Of a stretch of 64,000 bases of DNA, positions 41,462-47,520 are shown in pieces. The DNA comes from a bacterium 336/3 (GTDB lineage: Bacteria > Bacteroidota > Bacteroidia > Cytophagales > Thermonemataceae), in contig LJIE01000001.1 of NCBI GenBank assembly GCA_001281695.1, forward strand, positions 3,247,521 to 3,311,520, read 5' to 3'. A model generated the notes under the pieces. It ran no database searches and was not told where the DNA came from. It saw only the letters and a program-made list of their open reading frames with translations. Each line of letters opens with the position of its first letter. Positions within the stretch are counted from its first letter, which is position 1. A program made the translations under genes and the position numbers.

Positions 41462-41998
41462 ATGAAAAACAAAGTAAAATTCAGCACAGAAAGCCCTAAG
41501 GCTATTAAGGAGTTTTTGATGTCACAAACAGCTCCTTGGGTATATAACCCTGATGAAGAGCAAGATGAAGATTTTGCATTTTTCTTCTTCTTAGGTAAAC
41601 ATAAAAATAAAGATGTTGTCTTTGATGTAGCATTTTTTCCTTTAAGTGTACATTACGCTTCTATTATTGAAGAAACTGCCGAAGAAGAAATCAGGAAATT
41701 ATACCCTGAATATGATGGAGAAGATAGCAAATTGCCTGATGATAAAATGGAAGCCATTTTGGAGCATAAAGCTGAAATTATAGGAGAAATGGAAGCAGAA
41801 GAAAATCTTAAAGTTCAAGAATTTATGGATTTTGATGATGATTTTGAAGAAGGAGACCAAATTGTGCTTTTGACAGTTTCTTTGAATATTGATGAAGTAA
41901 ATGAAGAAGAAATAGACAAGTTCGTAAAAAGTTTTCAGAACAATACACTCAAAATAGATGAAAATTTATATTCTTTTAGCTTAGAAGAAGAAGATTAA
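41462..41998 (+). CDS. Tandem paralogue 1 of an unrecognised family
   Basis: 178 residues, highly acidic, no signal peptide. It starts MKNKVKFSTESPKAIKEFLM and shares with the next two genes the blocks QTAPWVYNPDEE, FFFLGKHKNKDVVF, EETAEEEIRKLYPEYDG, KMEAILEHKAEI, QEFMDFDDDFEEGD and EVNEEEIDKFVKSFQNN. This copy keeps the presumably ancestral tail YSFSLEEED. No domain or catalytic motif is recognised. It precedes, on the same strand, a sensor/roadblock/GTPase gene block, but whether they are co-transcribed is not clear. Confidence 0.75.
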   Translation: MKNKVKFSTESPKAIKEFLMSQTAPWVYNPDEEQDEDFAFFFFLGKHKNKDVVFDVAFFPLSVHYASIIEETAEEEIRKLYPEYDGEDSKLPDDKMEAILEHKAEIIGEMEAEENLKVQEFMDFDDDFEEGDQIVLLTVSLNIDEVNEEEIDKFVKSFQNNTLKIDENLYSFSLEEED

Positions 41999-42020
41999 GC
42001 TACTATAATATATTTGTTCT

Positions 42021-42551
42021 ATGAAAAACAAAGTAGAATTCAATCTAGACAACCCTGAGGCTATTAAGGAGTTATTGATGTTAGAAACAGCTCCTTGGGC
42101 ATATAACCCTGATGAAGAGTACAATGAAGATTTTGCATCTTTCTTTTTCTTAGGTAAATATAAAAACAAAGATGTTGTTTTTATTGTGGTATTTATCACT
42201 TTAGGTGTACATTACTCTATTACTATTGATGAAACAGCTGAAGAAGAAATGAGGAAACTATACCCTGAATATAATGGAAAAGATAGCAAACTGTCTAATG
42301 ATACGATGGAAGCCATTTTGGAGCATAAAGCTGAAATTAAAGGAAAATTGCTATTAGAAAAAAATCTTCAAGTTCAAGAATTTATGGATTTTGATGATGA
42401 TTTTGAAGGAGGAGACCAAATTGTGATTTTGAAAGTTGCTTTGAATATTTATGAGGTAAATGAAGAAGAAATAGACAAATTCGTAAAAAGTTTTCAGAAC
42501 AATACATTCAAATTAGATGAAACTTTATATTCTTTTAGACCAATTAGATAA
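42021..42551 (+). CDS. Tandem paralogue 2 of an unrecognised family
   Basis: 176 residues, starting 22 bases after paralogue 1. It is very similar in DNA and protein, including the upstream TATATTTGTTCT before the ATG. Differences cluster in the middle (VVFIVVFITLGVHYSITIDE) and at the end. A duplicated segment (42509-42540 and 42541-42568) shifts the frame so that the protein ends YSFRPIR, and the old tail sequence (coding for FSLEEKD) survives downstream of the stop at about 42559-42586. Function unknown. Confidence 0.75.
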   Translation: MKNKVEFNLDNPEAIKELLMLETAPWAYNPDEEYNEDFASFFFLGKYKNKDVVFIVVFITLGVHYSITIDETAEEEMRKLYPEYNGKDSKLSNDTMEAILEHKAEIKGKLLLEKNLQVQEFMDFDDDFEGGDQIVILKVALNIYEVNEEEIDKFVKSFQNNTFKLDETLYSFRPIR

Positions 42552-42568
42552 CTTTATATTCTTTTAGC
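42509..42568 (+). repeat. Short tandem duplication truncating the tail of paralogue 2
   Basis: A 32-base unit (42509-42540) is followed by a 28-base near copy (42541-42568); both contain ACTTTATATTCTTTTAG. Small deletions between the units change the frame and create the TAA at 42549-42551. Confidence 0.7.
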
Positions 42569-42609
42569 TTAGAAGAAAAAGATTAATTTGTCTATAGTAT
42601 ATTTGTTCT

Positions 42610-43161
42610 ATGAAAAACAACATAAAATTCAACACAGAAAGCCCTAAGGCTATTAAGGAGTTTTTGATATCACAAACAGCTCCTTGGGTATATAACCCTG
42701 ATGAAGAGTATGAAAAAGAGTATTGTCAAGATTTTACATCTTTTTTCTTCTTAGGTAAATATAAAAACAAAGATGTTGTTTTTATGGTGGAATTTATCAC
42801 TTTAGGTATACATTACTCTATTACTATTGATGAAAAAGCTGAAGAAGAAATTAAGAGGCTATACCCTGAATATGATGGAGGAGATGGCAAATTGCCTGAT
42901 AATCAAATGGAAGCCATTTTGGAGCATAAAGCTCAAATTAAAGGAAAATTGATTGTAGAAAAAAATATTAAAGTTCGAGAGTTTATAAAGTTTGATGATT
43001 TTGGAGATGATTTTGCAAAAGAAGACCCAAAGGTGCGTCTGACAGTTGCTTTAAATATTGATGAGGTAAATGAAGAAGAAATAGACAAATTCGTAAAAAG
43101 TTTTCAAAACAATATGTTCAAATTAGATGAAACTTTATATTCTTTTAGACCAATTAGATAA
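42610..43161 (+). CDS. Tandem paralogue 3 of an unrecognised family
   Basis: 183 residues, 58 bases after paralogue 2. It shares the same blocks and the altered tail YSFRPIR, so it is closer to copy 2 at this end, while its N-terminus (FNTESPKAIKEFLISQTAPWVY) is closer to copy 1. It has small insertions (EEYEKEYCQDFTSF and FDDFGDDFAKEDPKV). A mixed relationship like this suggests unequal crossing-over or gene conversion among the three. The same tail duplication lies at 43119-43150 and 43151-43180, with the fossil tail at about 43171-43198. Function unknown. Confidence 0.75.
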   Translation: MKNNIKFNTESPKAIKEFLISQTAPWVYNPDEEYEKEYCQDFTSFFFLGKYKNKDVVFMVEFITLGIHYSITIDEKAEEEIKRLYPEYDGGDGKLPDNQMEAILEHKAQIKGKLIVEKNIKVREFIKFDDFGDDFAKEDPKVRLTVALNIDEVNEEEIDKFVKSFQNNMFKLDETLYSFRPIR

Positions 43162-43229: not shown

Positions 43230-45383
43230 ATGGCATTATCTATTAGGAAAATACAAACAAAGATTTTATTAGCATTCTCTCTCTTGATTGTATTGGCAGG
43301 GATTATTAGTGCTGTTACATTTCTTTATCAAAGAAATATTAACTATTATCATAGTTATAAAGATTATCTAAACGACCTTCGTCACCTTACAGCTCAGGTA
43401 GATGGTATTCAAAAAGATTTTATAGTGATAGATTCCAAAGATGAAATCTACATGAGTAGTGGCAAAAGTAAGACACTTACCCAATTAGCTATCAACACCC
43501 AAGATACAAAAAAAGCTTTATCAGCTCTTAAAGACCACTCTACTACCAAAGAATTTAAGTTAGCAACTAATATCGAAAAAATTTCTAAGCTTAGAAATAC
43601 ATACAATAGCAATTTTGAGTTGCTTCAAAGAAAAATCAAAGAAAGAGGATTTAAAAATTATGGATTAGAAGGTAAAATGCGTGATTATGTGCATTTCCTT
43701 GAAGAGATTGATGTGAATACCGAACTGGTTTTACAGCTTCGAAGACATGAAAAAGATTTTTTTCTACGAAAAGATCTAGAATATAAAACAAAACTCCATC
43801 AAACTGCTGAAGTTCTCAAAAGAAGTATTGTTGATAGTCCTATTCCTGATAATCAGAAAGAAAAGTATATTACTTTCGTAAATGATTATGAAAGAATATT
43901 TGATAACATTGTTCTATTAGAACAAGAGATAGGTTTTGATACTAAAAAAGGGTTGAGAGGGCAAATGACAACCACCCATGAAGCCATCAATCAAGAAGTT
44001 CAAAATCTTTTTGAAATCATTACATTTTATATTGATGGCCTGATTTTACAAGCACAACTCATTGTAGCTTCAGCTATCCTAATTATGCTCATCACAGGAG
44101 CTATTTTTGCAATTTATTTTTCTTACAGTATTTCTCGCCCTATCATTCTATTGGATAGAGTAGCTAAATCCGTTGTAAAGGGCTTAAAAGGACAAGAATC
44201 CTTTTTGGATAGAATCAATACCGATGATGAAGTTGGTGATTTATCGAAGAACTTCAAAGTCATGCTTGAAAAACTTAAAACCAGTATTGAAGAAGCAGAA
44301 GATCGTAATGAGCAATTAGAAAGTTTTGTAAGTGAAGAATACAAACGTAATTGGGAAAACGAGGGTTTGGCAATATTTGGTGATATTTTGAAAAACAATA
44401 GTGAAAATTTGGAAAAACAATCCATTGAAATTATTTCAACTCTTGTCAAGTACACAAATTCTACTCAAGGCGGATTATTTATTGTCAATGACGAAAATGA
44501 AAACCACCAGTTTTTAGAACTAAAAGCATCTTATGCTTACGAGAGAAGAAAATATTTACAGAAAAGAATAGACTTTGGAGAGGGTATTTTGGGTGCTACT
44601 TGGCGTGAAGGAGATACTAATTTAATTACAGATATTCCTCAAGATTATCTGGCCGTTACCTCAGGTTTAGGGAAAACCAACCCTAATTGCTTGCTCATTG
44701 TACCAATCAAGACAGATGATAAAATAGAGGGTATCATCGAAATAGCCTCATTAAAGGTTTATGAAAAATATCAAATAGATTTTATAGAACGACTTTCTCG
44801 TCGTGTTGCAACCAACTTGTCAGCTGTAAAATCTAACGAAAAGAATATTAAACTCCTTTATGCTGCCAAAGACTTCTCTAAACAAATTGAAGCAAAAGAG
44901 GTAGAATTGCAGAAAAAAGTAGTGGAGTATGATAATTGGGTACAACAATTTGAAAATAAATTAAATTCTGTTTCAGAGGAATCACATATTTATCAGTATG
45001 TCCTCAATAAAATTTATGATGGTATTATCATCACAGACGAAAAATTCACGATTATCAAAGTAAATAACCATATTTTACGTAAATTCCGTTATAAACGTAG
45101 TGAAATTGAAGGACAGTCTGTAGATGTTCTTGTAGAAACAGATTATAACAATATCATTGATTTAAAAGACAAAAAATTCCAGTTAAGTTATAAGTCTTTC
45201 TCTAAAAAAGTGATGGGGAAAATCATTGACCATTTTGGTAATCAACATATTGTACAGATGATGTCAGGTAAAATGGAAATTGACACCAAAATAGTGTATG
45301 TATTCTTGTTCAATGAACTCACTCAAGACGAGCTTTCTCAATTCAATCAGATGAATGACAACAAAGATTTTTTATCTAACTAA
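43230..45383 (+). CDS. Membrane sensor with HAMP, GAF and PAS domains, no output enzyme
   Basis: 717 residues. TM1 (ILLAFSLLIVLAGIISAVTFLY, about 12-33) and TM2 (AQLIVASAILIMLITGAIFAIYFSY, about 276-300) enclose an all-helical periplasmic domain with LQLRRHEKDFFLRKD, typical of HBM/four-helix chemosensory domains. Then come HAMP (SISRPIILLDRVAKSV...DEVGDLSKNFKVM), a GAF domain (about 395-535, with GGLFIVNDENENH and CLLIVPIKTDDKIEGIIEIAS), a coiled coil, and a PAS domain (about 590-705, with YDGIIITDEKFTIIKVNNHILRKF). There is no kinase, GGDEF or MCP signalling domain, so output is probably by protein contact. It is followed 21 bases later by a roadblock gene, suggesting it feeds the GTPase module. 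Confidence 0.88.
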   Translation: MALSIRKIQTKILLAFSLLIVLAGIISAVTFLYQRNINYYHSYKDYLNDLRHLTAQVDGIQKDFIVIDSKDEIYMSSGKSKTLTQLAINTQDTKKALSALKDHSTTKEFKLATNIEKISKLRNTYNSNFELLQRKIKERGFKNYGLEGKMRDYVHFLEEIDVNTELVLQLRRHEKDFFLRKDLEYKTKLHQTAEVLKRSIVDSPIPDNQKEKYITFVNDYERIFDNIVLLEQEIGFDTKKGLRGQMTTTHEAINQEVQNLFEIITFYIDGLILQAQLIVASAILIMLITGAIFAIYFSYSISRPIILLDRVAKSVVKGLKGQESFLDRINTDDEVGDLSKNFKVMLEKLKTSIEEAEDRNEQLESFVSEEYKRNWENEGLAIFGDILKNNSENLEKQSIEIISTLVKYTNSTQGGLFIVNDENENHQFLELKASYAYERRKYLQKRIDFGEGILGATWREGDTNLITDIPQDYLAVTSGLGKTNPNCLLIVPIKTDDKIEGIIEIASLKVYEKYQIDFIERLSRRVATNLSAVKSNEKNIKLLYAAKDFSKQIEAKEVELQKKVVEYDNWVQQFENKLNSVSEESHIYQYVLNKIYDGIIITDEKFTIIKVNNHILRKFRYKRSEIEGQSVDVLVETDYNNIIDLKDKKFQLSYKSFSKKVMGKIIDHFGNQHIVQMMSGKMEIDTKIVYVFLFNELTQDELSQFNQMNDNKDFLSN

Positions 45384-45404
45384 ATTTATACTTAATAAAT
45401 ATTT

Positions 45405-45761
45405 ATGACTGAGCTCTATCAGGGAATTATTGAAAAATTAATGCAAGGAAGTAAAGATATTAAAGCAGTAGCTTTAATTAGTAGTGATGGGCTTATGCTT
45501 CATTCTAACATTTCAGACATCAATCCTGATAAAGTAGCTGCCCTTTCAGCAGCAGTGTTGGGTCTTGCAAAAAAATCCGCTTCTGAAATGAATTTTGGAG
45601 GACTCAATGAAGTTCAAATCAGAGGTGAAGATGCTACTTATATCATCCTTTCTATAGGTGTCAAAAAATTGCTTACTTTAATTGTATCTTCTCAAGCTAA
45701 TATTGGTATGATCAATATTTTAACCCGAGAAACTGTTAAAAGTTTATCAGAAGACATCTAA
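45405..45761 (+). CDS. Roadblock/LC7-domain protein 1 (MglB-like)
   Basis: 118 residues, a single roadblock/LC7 domain: an N-terminal helix (YQGIIEKLMQGSKDIKAVALIS), strand pair (SDGLMLHSNISD), central helix (PDKVAALSAAVLGLAKKSASEM) and the strands NEVQIRGEDATYIILSIGVKKLLTLIV. Bacterial roadblock proteins such as MglB regulate small Ras-like GTPases, and an MglA-type GTPase gene is two genes downstream. It is closely spaced with the sensor and the next gene (24 bases), so the genes are probably in one operon. Confidence 0.92.
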   Translation: MTELYQGIIEKLMQGSKDIKAVALISSDGLMLHSNISDINPDKVAALSAAVLGLAKKSASEMNFGGLNEVQIRGEDATYIILSIGVKKLLTLIVSSQANIGMINILTRETVKSLSEDI

Positions 45762-45785
45762 ATTACATCATTTTAAATATATTTT

Positions 45786-46394
45786 ATGTTAACTGTTCAA
45801 CTTTTAGATGTTTTTTATGATATACTTTCAAATAAGAAAAGTGGTATTGTAGAGATTAATGCAGAAAACGGCTCATGCCATGTCAATATTTATCAAGGAG
45901 AATTTGTGATAGATTTGGATAAATCATTGTTCATGAAAGTTATGTCTGACAATATAAAAGAATTTTCATTTAAAGAAAGCAATATAGATAAAACCTTTAA
46001 TTTTTATCCCTTATTAAACTTATTGTGGGATTTTTCAAACCTTTCTCTAAGCTTTTCTGATGATTTTTACAAAAATTATTTAAACAATCATATTATAGGA
46101 AAAACTTCCTTGAATGACATATATAAATTAGGTAATCAAATTGGTATCGATACTCTTTTGGTTTATTTATTTTTTTCAAAGTCTGAGAATCGAACCTTCA
46201 AAGATTTATTGGACTTCTATTCTTATAAATCCCCTCAAGATTTAAAATCTACTGTATATCGTCTGTTTATAATTGGTCAATTAAAAGTGTTAGGTAACAT
46301 TATTCAAGAAAATAATGTACAAAAAGACAATCCCCAATTATCTAATAAAAATATTGCCCTTCAAAAATTACTTAATAAAATATCTAATCTATAA
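45786..46394 (+). CDS. PATAN/DUF4388-like protein between roadblock and GTPase genes
   Basis: 202 residues, cytoplasmic. The N-terminal part (LLDVFYDILSNKKSGIVEINAENGSCHVNIYQGEFVIDLD) resembles DUF4388/PATAN domains, where a short helical segment precedes KSGxVxI...G...I.Y..GE strands. The match is partial. The rest is helical, with a possible winged-helix-like segment (FKDLLDFYSYKSPQDLKSTVYRLFIIGQLKV). PATAN proteins are known neighbours of roadblock and MglA-type GTPase genes. Its role would be as an adaptor; that is inference. Confidence 0.6.
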   Translation: MLTVQLLDVFYDILSNKKSGIVEINAENGSCHVNIYQGEFVIDLDKSLFMKVMSDNIKEFSFKESNIDKTFNFYPLLNLLWDFSNLSLSFSDDFYKNYLNNHIIGKTSLNDIYKLGNQIGIDTLLVYLFFSKSENRTFKDLLDFYSYKSPQDLKSTVYRLFIIGQLKVLGNIIQENNVQKDNPQLSNKNIALQKLLNKISNL

Positions 46395-46462
46395 TTTTTT
46401 TATTTTTTTTAAACATTTTGGTAAGCTTTTAAGTTTATTCTCCGAATATTCTATTTTTTATT

Positions 46463-46984
46463 ATGAAACAAGTTCTTAAATTAGTTATATCTGGTGATGT
46501 TGGAGCAGGCAAAACAACCTTTGTAAGAGCAATTAGTGAGATAGAGCCTATTACTACTGATGAAGCTGTTACAGAGGCTTCGACCCTTTTATTGAAAGAG
46601 CATACCACCGTTGCAATGGACTTTGGTTTGCTGACTATTGATGAAGACCTCGTATTACATATTTATGCAACTCCTGGTCAGAAAAGATTTAATTTTATGT
46701 GGGATGTTTTAGCCGAAAATTGTTTTGGCTTGATTTTTCTAGCTGATGCCTCTCGCATGGATTCAATTTTAGAAACAAATAATATTATTTCCTACTTTGA
46801 CCAACATTTTCCTCACATACCTTACATTGTAGGTGTTACAAAGTTAGATATACCTGATAGTCTAGCTCTACAAGCCATCATAGAACTCATGGGGAGAAAT
46901 GTACAATTTTTACCCATCAATGCAAATAATCCCCAAGAAGTAAAAGATGCTACACTAGCTATCATTTCTTTGGCAATGGCTTAA
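46463..46984 (+). CDS. MglA-like small Ras-type GTPase
   Basis: 173 residues. G1/P-loop GDVGAGKTT (residues 11-19), a switch region with conserved Thr residues (TTDEAVTEASTLLL), G3 YATPGQKRFNFMW (PGQ at 71-73, as in MglA/Rag-like GTPases rather than the DxxG of Ras), and G4 GVTKLDIP (TKLD at 126-129) for guanine specificity. A PINANN segment is at the G5 position. Such GTPases act with roadblock proteins as regulators of polarity, gliding or signalling. It lies 68 bases after the PATAN-like gene and before a second roadblock gene. Confidence 0.9.
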   Translation: MKQVLKLVISGDVGAGKTTFVRAISEIEPITTDEAVTEASTLLLKEHTTVAMDFGLLTIDEDLVLHIYATPGQKRFNFMWDVLAENCFGLIFLADASRMDSILETNNIISYFDQHFPHIPYIVGVTKLDIPDSLALQAIIELMGRNVQFLPINANNPQEVKDATLAIISLAMA

Positions 46985-47000
46985 TAAAAAAAGATATATA

Positions 47001-47031
47001 TTTGGTATTCTATTAAAAAAATTTAGTTTTG
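47001..47031 (+). promoter_or_regulatory. Promoter for the second roadblock gene
   Basis: TTTG (47001-47004), exactly 19 bases and TAGTTTTG (47024-47031) match the consensus, 37 bases before the start codon. The second roadblock gene can therefore be transcribed apart from the GTPase gene. Confidence 0.75.
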
Positions 47032-47068
47032 TATATATTAGTTTTACACAATTAAAATTTTTCATAAA

Positions 47069-47461
47069 ATGGAAACCAAAGAAACCCAACTTAAAACATT
47101 ACTTGAACAAACAGCCAAAGAAATTTCTGGAACTCTTGGTATCTCTATTGTAGAGGTTGCCTCTGGAATGGCTCTATCATCTTATTCATTAAAATCTGAT
47201 TTTGATTTGAATGTAGCAGCAGCTTACAATGCAGAAGTTGTAAAACAGAAATTAAAAGCAATGCAAGCTCTTAATCTCAAAAATGAAGCTATTACAGATA
47301 TGATTATCACACTTACAACACAAGTACATTTTATCAGATTTGTAGGTACTAAATATATTATTTACTTCGCAGCAGACTCTACTTCCTCTAATATGGGCAT
47401 GATTAAAACAGTTTTAAATGCTAATGCTCCTAAAATTCAAGCTATTATCGATTCTTTATAA
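47069..47461 (+). CDS. Roadblock/LC7-domain protein 2
   Basis: 130 residues. The fold pattern is helix (LKTLLEQTAKEISGTLG), strands (ISIVEVASGMALSSYSL), helix (FDLNVAAAYNAEVVKQKLKAMQAL) and strands (ITDMIITLTTQVHFIRFVGTKYIIYFAAD), then a C-terminal helix. It is diverged from roadblock protein 1. It follows the GTPase gene and ends at a bidirectional terminator shared with rpsB. It may form the second half of a heteromeric regulator for the GTPase; this is inferred from position and family. Confidence 0.82.
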   Translation: METKETQLKTLLEQTAKEISGTLGISIVEVASGMALSSYSLKSDFDLNVAAAYNAEVVKQKLKAMQALNLKNEAITDMIITLTTQVHFIRFVGTKYIIYFAADSTSSNMGMIKTVLNANAPKIQAIIDSL

Positions 47462-47486: not shown

Positions 47487-47520
47487 TAAAAAACCCCACA
47501 AATTGTGGGGTTAAATTTTT
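47487..47520. terminator. Bidirectional terminator between roadblock 2 and rpsB
   Basis: AACCCCAC and GTGGGGTT pair over a 5-base loop between the convergent stop codons, flanked by A and T runs. Confidence 0.85.

Follow-up and report, generated by a model that had tools for sequence, protein, structure and literature searches.

A block of five genes (positions 43,230 to 47,461) in bacterium 336/3, a member of the family Thermonemataceae within the class Bacteroidia of the phylum Bacteroidota, encodes a membrane sensor, two roadblock proteins, a fast-evolving protein of intermediate position (here called the middle protein) and a Ras-like GTPase. The block lies in a stretch of 64,000 nucleotides from contig LJIE01000001.1 (positions 3,247,521 to 3,311,520), hereafter called the window. 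An earlier inspection of the letters of this DNA (the sequence-only reading) had proposed that the five genes constitute a single route by which a sensor lacking any output enzyme passes an environmental signal to the GTPase through protein contacts. Our analysis indicates that the block probably consists of two units that stand side by side, namely a GTPase switch cassette of four genes (45405-47461) and an older sensor unit. All five open reading frames (ORFs) are on the + strand where they had originally been placed, with intergenic gaps of 21, 24, 68 and 84 bp (Table 1).

The cassette is defined foremost by its distribution. Profile searches of the eight sequenced genomes of the family locate the GTPase, roadblock 1 and roadblock 2 in the same two genomes, those of the window and of one sister genus, and detect no proteins of this kind in the other six. 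The sister genus keeps the order roadblock 1, middle gene, GTPase, roadblock 2, and its orthologues are 77% (roadblock 1), 36% (middle protein) and 82% (GTPase) identical to those of the window. Among 395 sampled genomes of the class, the cassette GTPase is the sole match of its type. Such a GTPase is present in 8 of 296 genomes sampled across the phylum, including the window genome, and in five of these eight (G465, G466, G470, G474 and G691, all from other classes) roadblock 1, a middle gene of ~230 amino acids and the GTPase occur in the same order. At one of the two G465 loci, a CZB gene separates roadblock 1 from the middle gene, and G465 is also the only one of these genomes in which roadblock 2 was seen near the module. 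More distant relatives from Thermus, Deinococcus, Proteobacteria and Streptomyces likewise pair the GTPase with a roadblock protein and often with a small protein. Judged by gene content, order and occurrence, the four genes are a real and old cassette, either carried whole or undetected altogether. The sequence-only reading grouped an MglA-type GTPase with two diverged roadblock proteins, and content, order and co-occurrence bear out that these form a coherent cassette. Conservation of gene order holds for all four cassette genes in the sister genus and for the first three in other classes, and it fails for the place of the sensor.

The sensor has a transmembrane segment (residues ~7-35), a periplasmic region, a second transmembrane segment (residues ~263-302), and then HAMP, GAF, coiled-coil and PAS regions. 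Pfam matches support GAF_2 (E 8.8e-11) and the C-terminal PAS domain (E 1.2e-6), and the HAMP match (E 1.3e-3) is weaker than the Pfam cut-off. Searches of Pfam and NCBIfam revealed no kinase, methyl-accepting chemotaxis protein or cyclase domain, and neither HisKA nor HATPase. The description of a membrane HAMP/GAF/PAS protein with no output enzyme therefore stands, with HAMP matched weakly, whereas the HBM domain assigned to it has no match in Pfam. Orthologues with 42-65% identity along almost their entire length are present in all eight family genomes, and none of them carries an added output domain, whether the cassette is present or not. In all eight, the next gene upstream encodes an acidic protein of ~180 amino acids with no Pfam match. 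In the window this gene is triplicated, and the tandem copies (41462-43161) are 65-74% identical. By its genomic neighbourhood, the conserved partner of the sensor is this small acidic gene and not the GTPase.

Although the sensor is found in 8 of 8 family genomes and the GTPase in 2 of 8, the two are adjacent only in the window genome. In the sister genus, the cassette and the sensor are on different contigs, and an FkbM methyltransferase gene stands in front of the cassette. Six family genomes carry the sensor and no detectable GTPase or roadblock gene. Because the sensor is equally output-less in these relatives, the GTPase cannot explain the missing output. In addition, the PAS domain is 61-72% identical across relatives regardless of whether the GTPase is present, and the window's sensor has no segment that its relatives lack. 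The possibility that the sensor is a fixed or dedicated partner of the GTPase was rejected, since the family survey shows neither conserved linkage nor co-occurrence. This outcome is the one that the sequence-only reading had itself named as evidence against its proposal. On these comparisons we place the sensor outside the conserved cassette.

A direct sensor-to-GTPase route is consequently poorly supported, and the proposed pathway probably reflects nothing more than where the genes happen to lie. Under the original model, the HAMP/GAF/PAS sensor contacts the roadblock pair directly and the pair switches the GTPase. This would fit the 21-bp gap with no terminator between sensor and roadblock 1, the same order of membrane sensor, roadblock, small protein and GTPase in actinobacterial conservons, and the presence of other sensory neighbours beside related modules. 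However, the sensor lacks an output just the same in the six genomes without the cassette, is apart from the cassette in its other carrier, and has no added segment here, and we therefore consider this model distinctly unlikely. A related scenario, in which the sensor has been recruited at this locus to feed signals into a cassette newly arrived there, with roadblock 2 as the docking adaptor of a kinase-free route to a Ras-like switch, seems to us very doubtful. Adjacency by itself would have misassigned an older and still orphan sensor to the GTPase, and the negative result is useful for this reason.

The proximity of the two units might instead be a matter of expression. The spacing of 21 bp makes read-through from the sensor gene likely, and the cassette is probably co-transcribed with the sensor in this genome. 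In the window, the tested form of the Bacteroidota-type promoter site does not occur in front of roadblock 1, whereas in the sister genus a promoter-like site of this type is located 50 bp before roadblock 1. These features would be expected if the cassette had landed beside the sensor and borrowed only the promoter of the sensor locus to express its first three genes, while the two units exchanged no signal by contact. A promoter inside the sensor gene might also serve, and we give promoter sharing slightly less than an even chance. It would refine the two-unit explanation rather than oppose it.

Roadblock 2 had been assigned its own consensus promoter, and this claim is supported in the form of a Bacteroidota-type consensus match. 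The site, TTTG-N19-TAGTTTTG, is situated 38 bp before the gene. Matches to the general form TTTG-N18-21-TANNTTTG number 10 in the window, where 3.8 would be expected, and 8 in L007, where the expectation is 1.8. There is also a sigma-70-type site before roadblock 2, but sites of this class are not above chance in the window (30 found, 24.7 expected). For this genome, then, the Bacteroidota consensus is a useful guide to promoters, which the sigma-70 scan is not. The sister genus has no Bacteroidota-type site between the GTPase and roadblock 2, which suggests that the site in the window may be local.

The GTPase is Ras-like, has both the PGQ and the TKLD motif noted earlier, and its best solved relative is MglA (1.5e-5). 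The four motifs are GDVGAGKTT (G1), TTVAMDFG (G2), ATPGQ (G3) and TKLD (G4). When compared to the MglA groups defined by Wuichet and Sogaard-Andersen (PMC4316618), G2 has a threonine (HTTVAMDFG) in place of the Group 1 arginine (RTLFFDF in Group 1 MglA), and G4 conforms to the canonical [NT]KxD that separates Groups 1, 4 and 5 from Groups 2 and 3. The G3 sequence departs by one residue from the GTPGQ of Group 5 but retains TPGQ. Among the sequences compared, the alanine of ATPGQ is common only to the window and the sister genus, and nearly all other non-Group 1 sequences have GTPGQ. In a tree of 28 sequences, whose deep forks are open and which does not include the reference set of Group 5, the GTPase falls in a clade with the GTPases of other Bacteroidota classes (support 95/96), with Groups 1 and 2 outside. 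The combination of the G2 threonines, TPGQ and TKLD places the protein nearest to Group 5, and its motifs thus point to a Group 5-like variant of the MglA family.

Roadblock 1 matches the Robl_LC7 family of Pfam (1.6e-12). It carries a DG pair (SSDGL) that aligns with the invariant DG of the partners of Group 2-5 GTPases, and a profile built with its relatives matches roadblock structures including CvnB5 and MglB. By analogy with these proteins, we infer that roadblock 1 is an MglB-like GTPase-activating protein or gate for the GTPase.

Roadblock 2 has no Pfam match. Its sole credible relative in the PDB is MglC (7ct3), which is matched over the full length with E values of 8.3e-4 (single sequence) and 2.3e-3 (profile). 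Together with a weak match to the roadblock profile A8, this supports the proposal that the fifth gene encodes a second, diverged roadblock protein. Relatives of roadblock 2 are present in 6 of the 395 class genomes, including the window genome. In G318, G176 and G343 (L008, L010, L069 and L071), a roadblock of 107-153 amino acids and a roadblock-2 protein are encoded as adjacent pairs, for which the class survey detected no MglA-type GTPase. These pairs support the view, from gene arrangement, that two diverged roadblocks may be a unit in themselves. A further genome of the same taxonomic order, G036, carries five roadblock-2-type genes in two clusters (L066 and L067), partly in tandem, and no such GTPase was found there.

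A possible role for roadblock 2 is suggested by one of the G465 loci (L090:4680-5501), where one gene joins a receiver domain to a domain of the roadblock-2 type (residues 154-270, E 4.7e-16). The genes for roadblock 1, the middle protein and the GTPase follow this fusion gene directly, and a free roadblock 2 is nearby. In Myxococcus xanthus, MglC has the response regulator RomR on one side and MglB on the other (PMC10329633; PMC12719032), and the fusion appears to repeat the RomR-MglC contact within a single polypeptide. Taken together, these arrangements suggest that roadblock 2 serves as an input port or adaptor.

The middle protein evolves quickly and is predicted to have an alpha/beta N-terminal half and a winged-helix-like C-terminal half. 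Its C-terminal 80 residues are related to those of the middle genes in other classes (hhalign 90%, E 1.6e-6). It had been identified as PATAN/DUF4388-like, which we could not confirm: Pfam gives no match to DUF4388 or DUF742, and profile comparison by hhalign against DUF4388-type proteins of Thermus and Deinococcus gives a probability of 0.4% and lends no support with either two or eight sequences. Its operon position nevertheless equals that of a true DUF4388 gene in Thermus. An AlphaFold model from eight sequences has a predicted local distance difference test (pLDDT) score of 67 and yields winged-helix matches with Z up to 7.3 over residues ~97-178; an earlier model from two sequences (pLDDT 52) was too poor to use, and a Foldseek search with the middle protein model returned nothing at E below 0.8. 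It is conceivable that the middle protein is a transcription factor whose DNA binding is gated by the GTPase. The modelled winged helix agrees with this, as do weak helix-turn-helix matches in the equivalent Deinococcus proteins and the reported presence of a receiver-like/winged-helix protein in Group 3 MglA modules (PMC4316618). However, the confidence of the model is moderate, a Z under 8 may reflect nothing more than a widespread arrangement, and binding to other proteins is a further use of winged helices. We regard a transcription factor as unlikely. The middle protein, whose gene directly precedes that of the GTPase, is possibly an effector or adaptor.

From these features, a working scheme for the cassette can be outlined. 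The GTPase is predicted to cycle between GTP and GDP states, and roadblock 1 as its MglB-like partner would speed hydrolysis or gate the GTPase. Roadblock 2, as the MglC-like member, would link some input protein with roadblock 1 and might also be made from its own promoter. The middle protein would be an effector or adaptor. The sensor unit, comprising the small acidic gene and the membrane sensor, would be the older of the two and is carried by the family with or without the GTPase.

Several observations weigh against this interpretation. Only two family genomes have the cassette, and the independence of the sensor is drawn from one alternative placement and six absences. The FDI motif in the beta1-beta2 turn of MglC, which contacts MglB (PMC7949163), is absent from roadblock 2, which has ASGM at the aligned place. 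For this reason we call the protein MglC-like rather than MglC, and its contact surface must differ. Furthermore, M. xanthus MglC left the GTPase activity of MglA unchanged (PMC10329633), and relatives of roadblock 2 also exist in the class where there is no such GTPase, so their job need not involve one.

Table 1. Features of the locus, with positions in the window.
Feature	Position	Strand	Remarks
Small acidic protein gene, copy 1 of 3 in tandem	41462..41998	+	
Small acidic protein gene, copy 2 of 3 in tandem	42021..42551	+	74% identical to copy 1
Small acidic protein gene, copy 3 of 3 in tandem	42610..43161	+	Directly upstream of sensor
Output-less membrane sensor, 717 aa	43230..45383	+	Adjacent; judged outside the conserved cassette
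Roadblock 1, MglB-like, 118 aa; first cassette gene	45405..45761	+	Robl_LC7
Middle protein, 202 aa	45786..46394	+	Orthologue in sister genus; C-terminal homology to other Bacteroidota middle genes
MglA-family small GTPase, Group 5-like, 173 aa	46463..46984	+	Motifs, tree
Bacteroidota-type promoter-like site ahead of roadblock 2	47001..47031	+	Consensus match TTTG-N19-TAGTTTTG
Roadblock 2, MglC-like diverged roadblock, 130 aa	47069..47461	+	Match to MglC 7ct3
Bidirectional terminator-like hairpin	47492..47512	.	Between cassette and convergent rpsB

Little is known of signal routes to bacterial Ras-like GTPases outside Myxococcus and Streptomyces, and the locus offers a compact four-gene cassette in a class from which such modules are nearly absent. 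The M. xanthus MglA-MglB-MglC system (with RomR) likewise combines a Ras-like GTPase with two diverged roadblocks, and MglC is the protein that roadblock 2 most resembles. It differs in having a Group 1 MglA with an intrinsic arginine finger and TVPGQ, whereas the block in the window has neither an FDI motif nor a receiver-domain gene. The presence of MglC-like, MglB-like and MglA-family proteins might indicate a polarity or motility module that controls surface gliding. This is very unlikely, because both motifs and tree position set the GTPase well apart from Group 1 MglA, because it is without the Group 1 arginine finger, and because it is absent from nearly all of the class, whose many gliders therefore do without it.

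Actinobacterial conservons (CvnA-B-C-D, also termed AGPS, with a Group 2 MglA) have the same order of membrane sensor, roadblock, small protein and GTPase. In these, however, the sensor is the histidine kinase CvnA, a constant member of the operon; CvnC belongs to DUF742; and the GTPase has a deviant G4 (NxFD type) together with DAR. The locus in the window has no kinase, a sensor that is not fixed, two roadblocks, and a GTPase with TKLD and no DAR. Membership among the conservons was rejected on the kinase, DUF742 and the GTPase motifs.

Likenesses are also found in the Group 5-type modules of Deinococcota (for example Thermus brockianus pTB1 and Deinococcus ficus pDFI1), which have a run of middle protein, GTPase and roadblock with sensory or signalling genes nearby. 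Their GTPases are ~40-45% identical to that of the window and share the same type of G1 and G2 motifs, but have GTPGQ rather than ATPGQ and TRQD rather than TKLD. The Thermus middle protein is DUF4388 by Pfam, unlike that of the window, and there is one recognisable roadblock; the Deinococcus gene that follows it was considered as a second, and no relation to roadblock 2 was found. Protoglobin-type genes are located between GTPase and roadblock in Thermus (L072:4486-7144, then EAL and HD-GYP genes) and, as judged by sequence only, in Thiodiazotropha (L054:6989-9155), which may indicate that such modules receive an oxygen or redox signal.

The modules of other Bacteroidota classes share the gene order, and their GTPases form one clade with that of the window. 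Their neighbours are not HAMP/GAF/PAS sensors but hemerythrin and receiver proteins (L086, and L088 and L091 as judged by sequence), a zinc-binding CZB protein (L089), or a PAS-rich hybrid histidine kinase (upstream in L088). The inputs of related modules therefore vary among histidine kinase, receiver, hemerythrin, protoglobin and zinc-binding proteins, and the fusion in L090 points to the MglC-like roadblock as a port where varied sensors may plug in. Modules of Group 5 have been on record since 2014, with neighbours that vary and PATAN genes in some cases (PMC4316618). As far as the literature searched shows, the occurrence of such a module in this class, its MglC-like second roadblock, and the receiver fusion in a relative are new.

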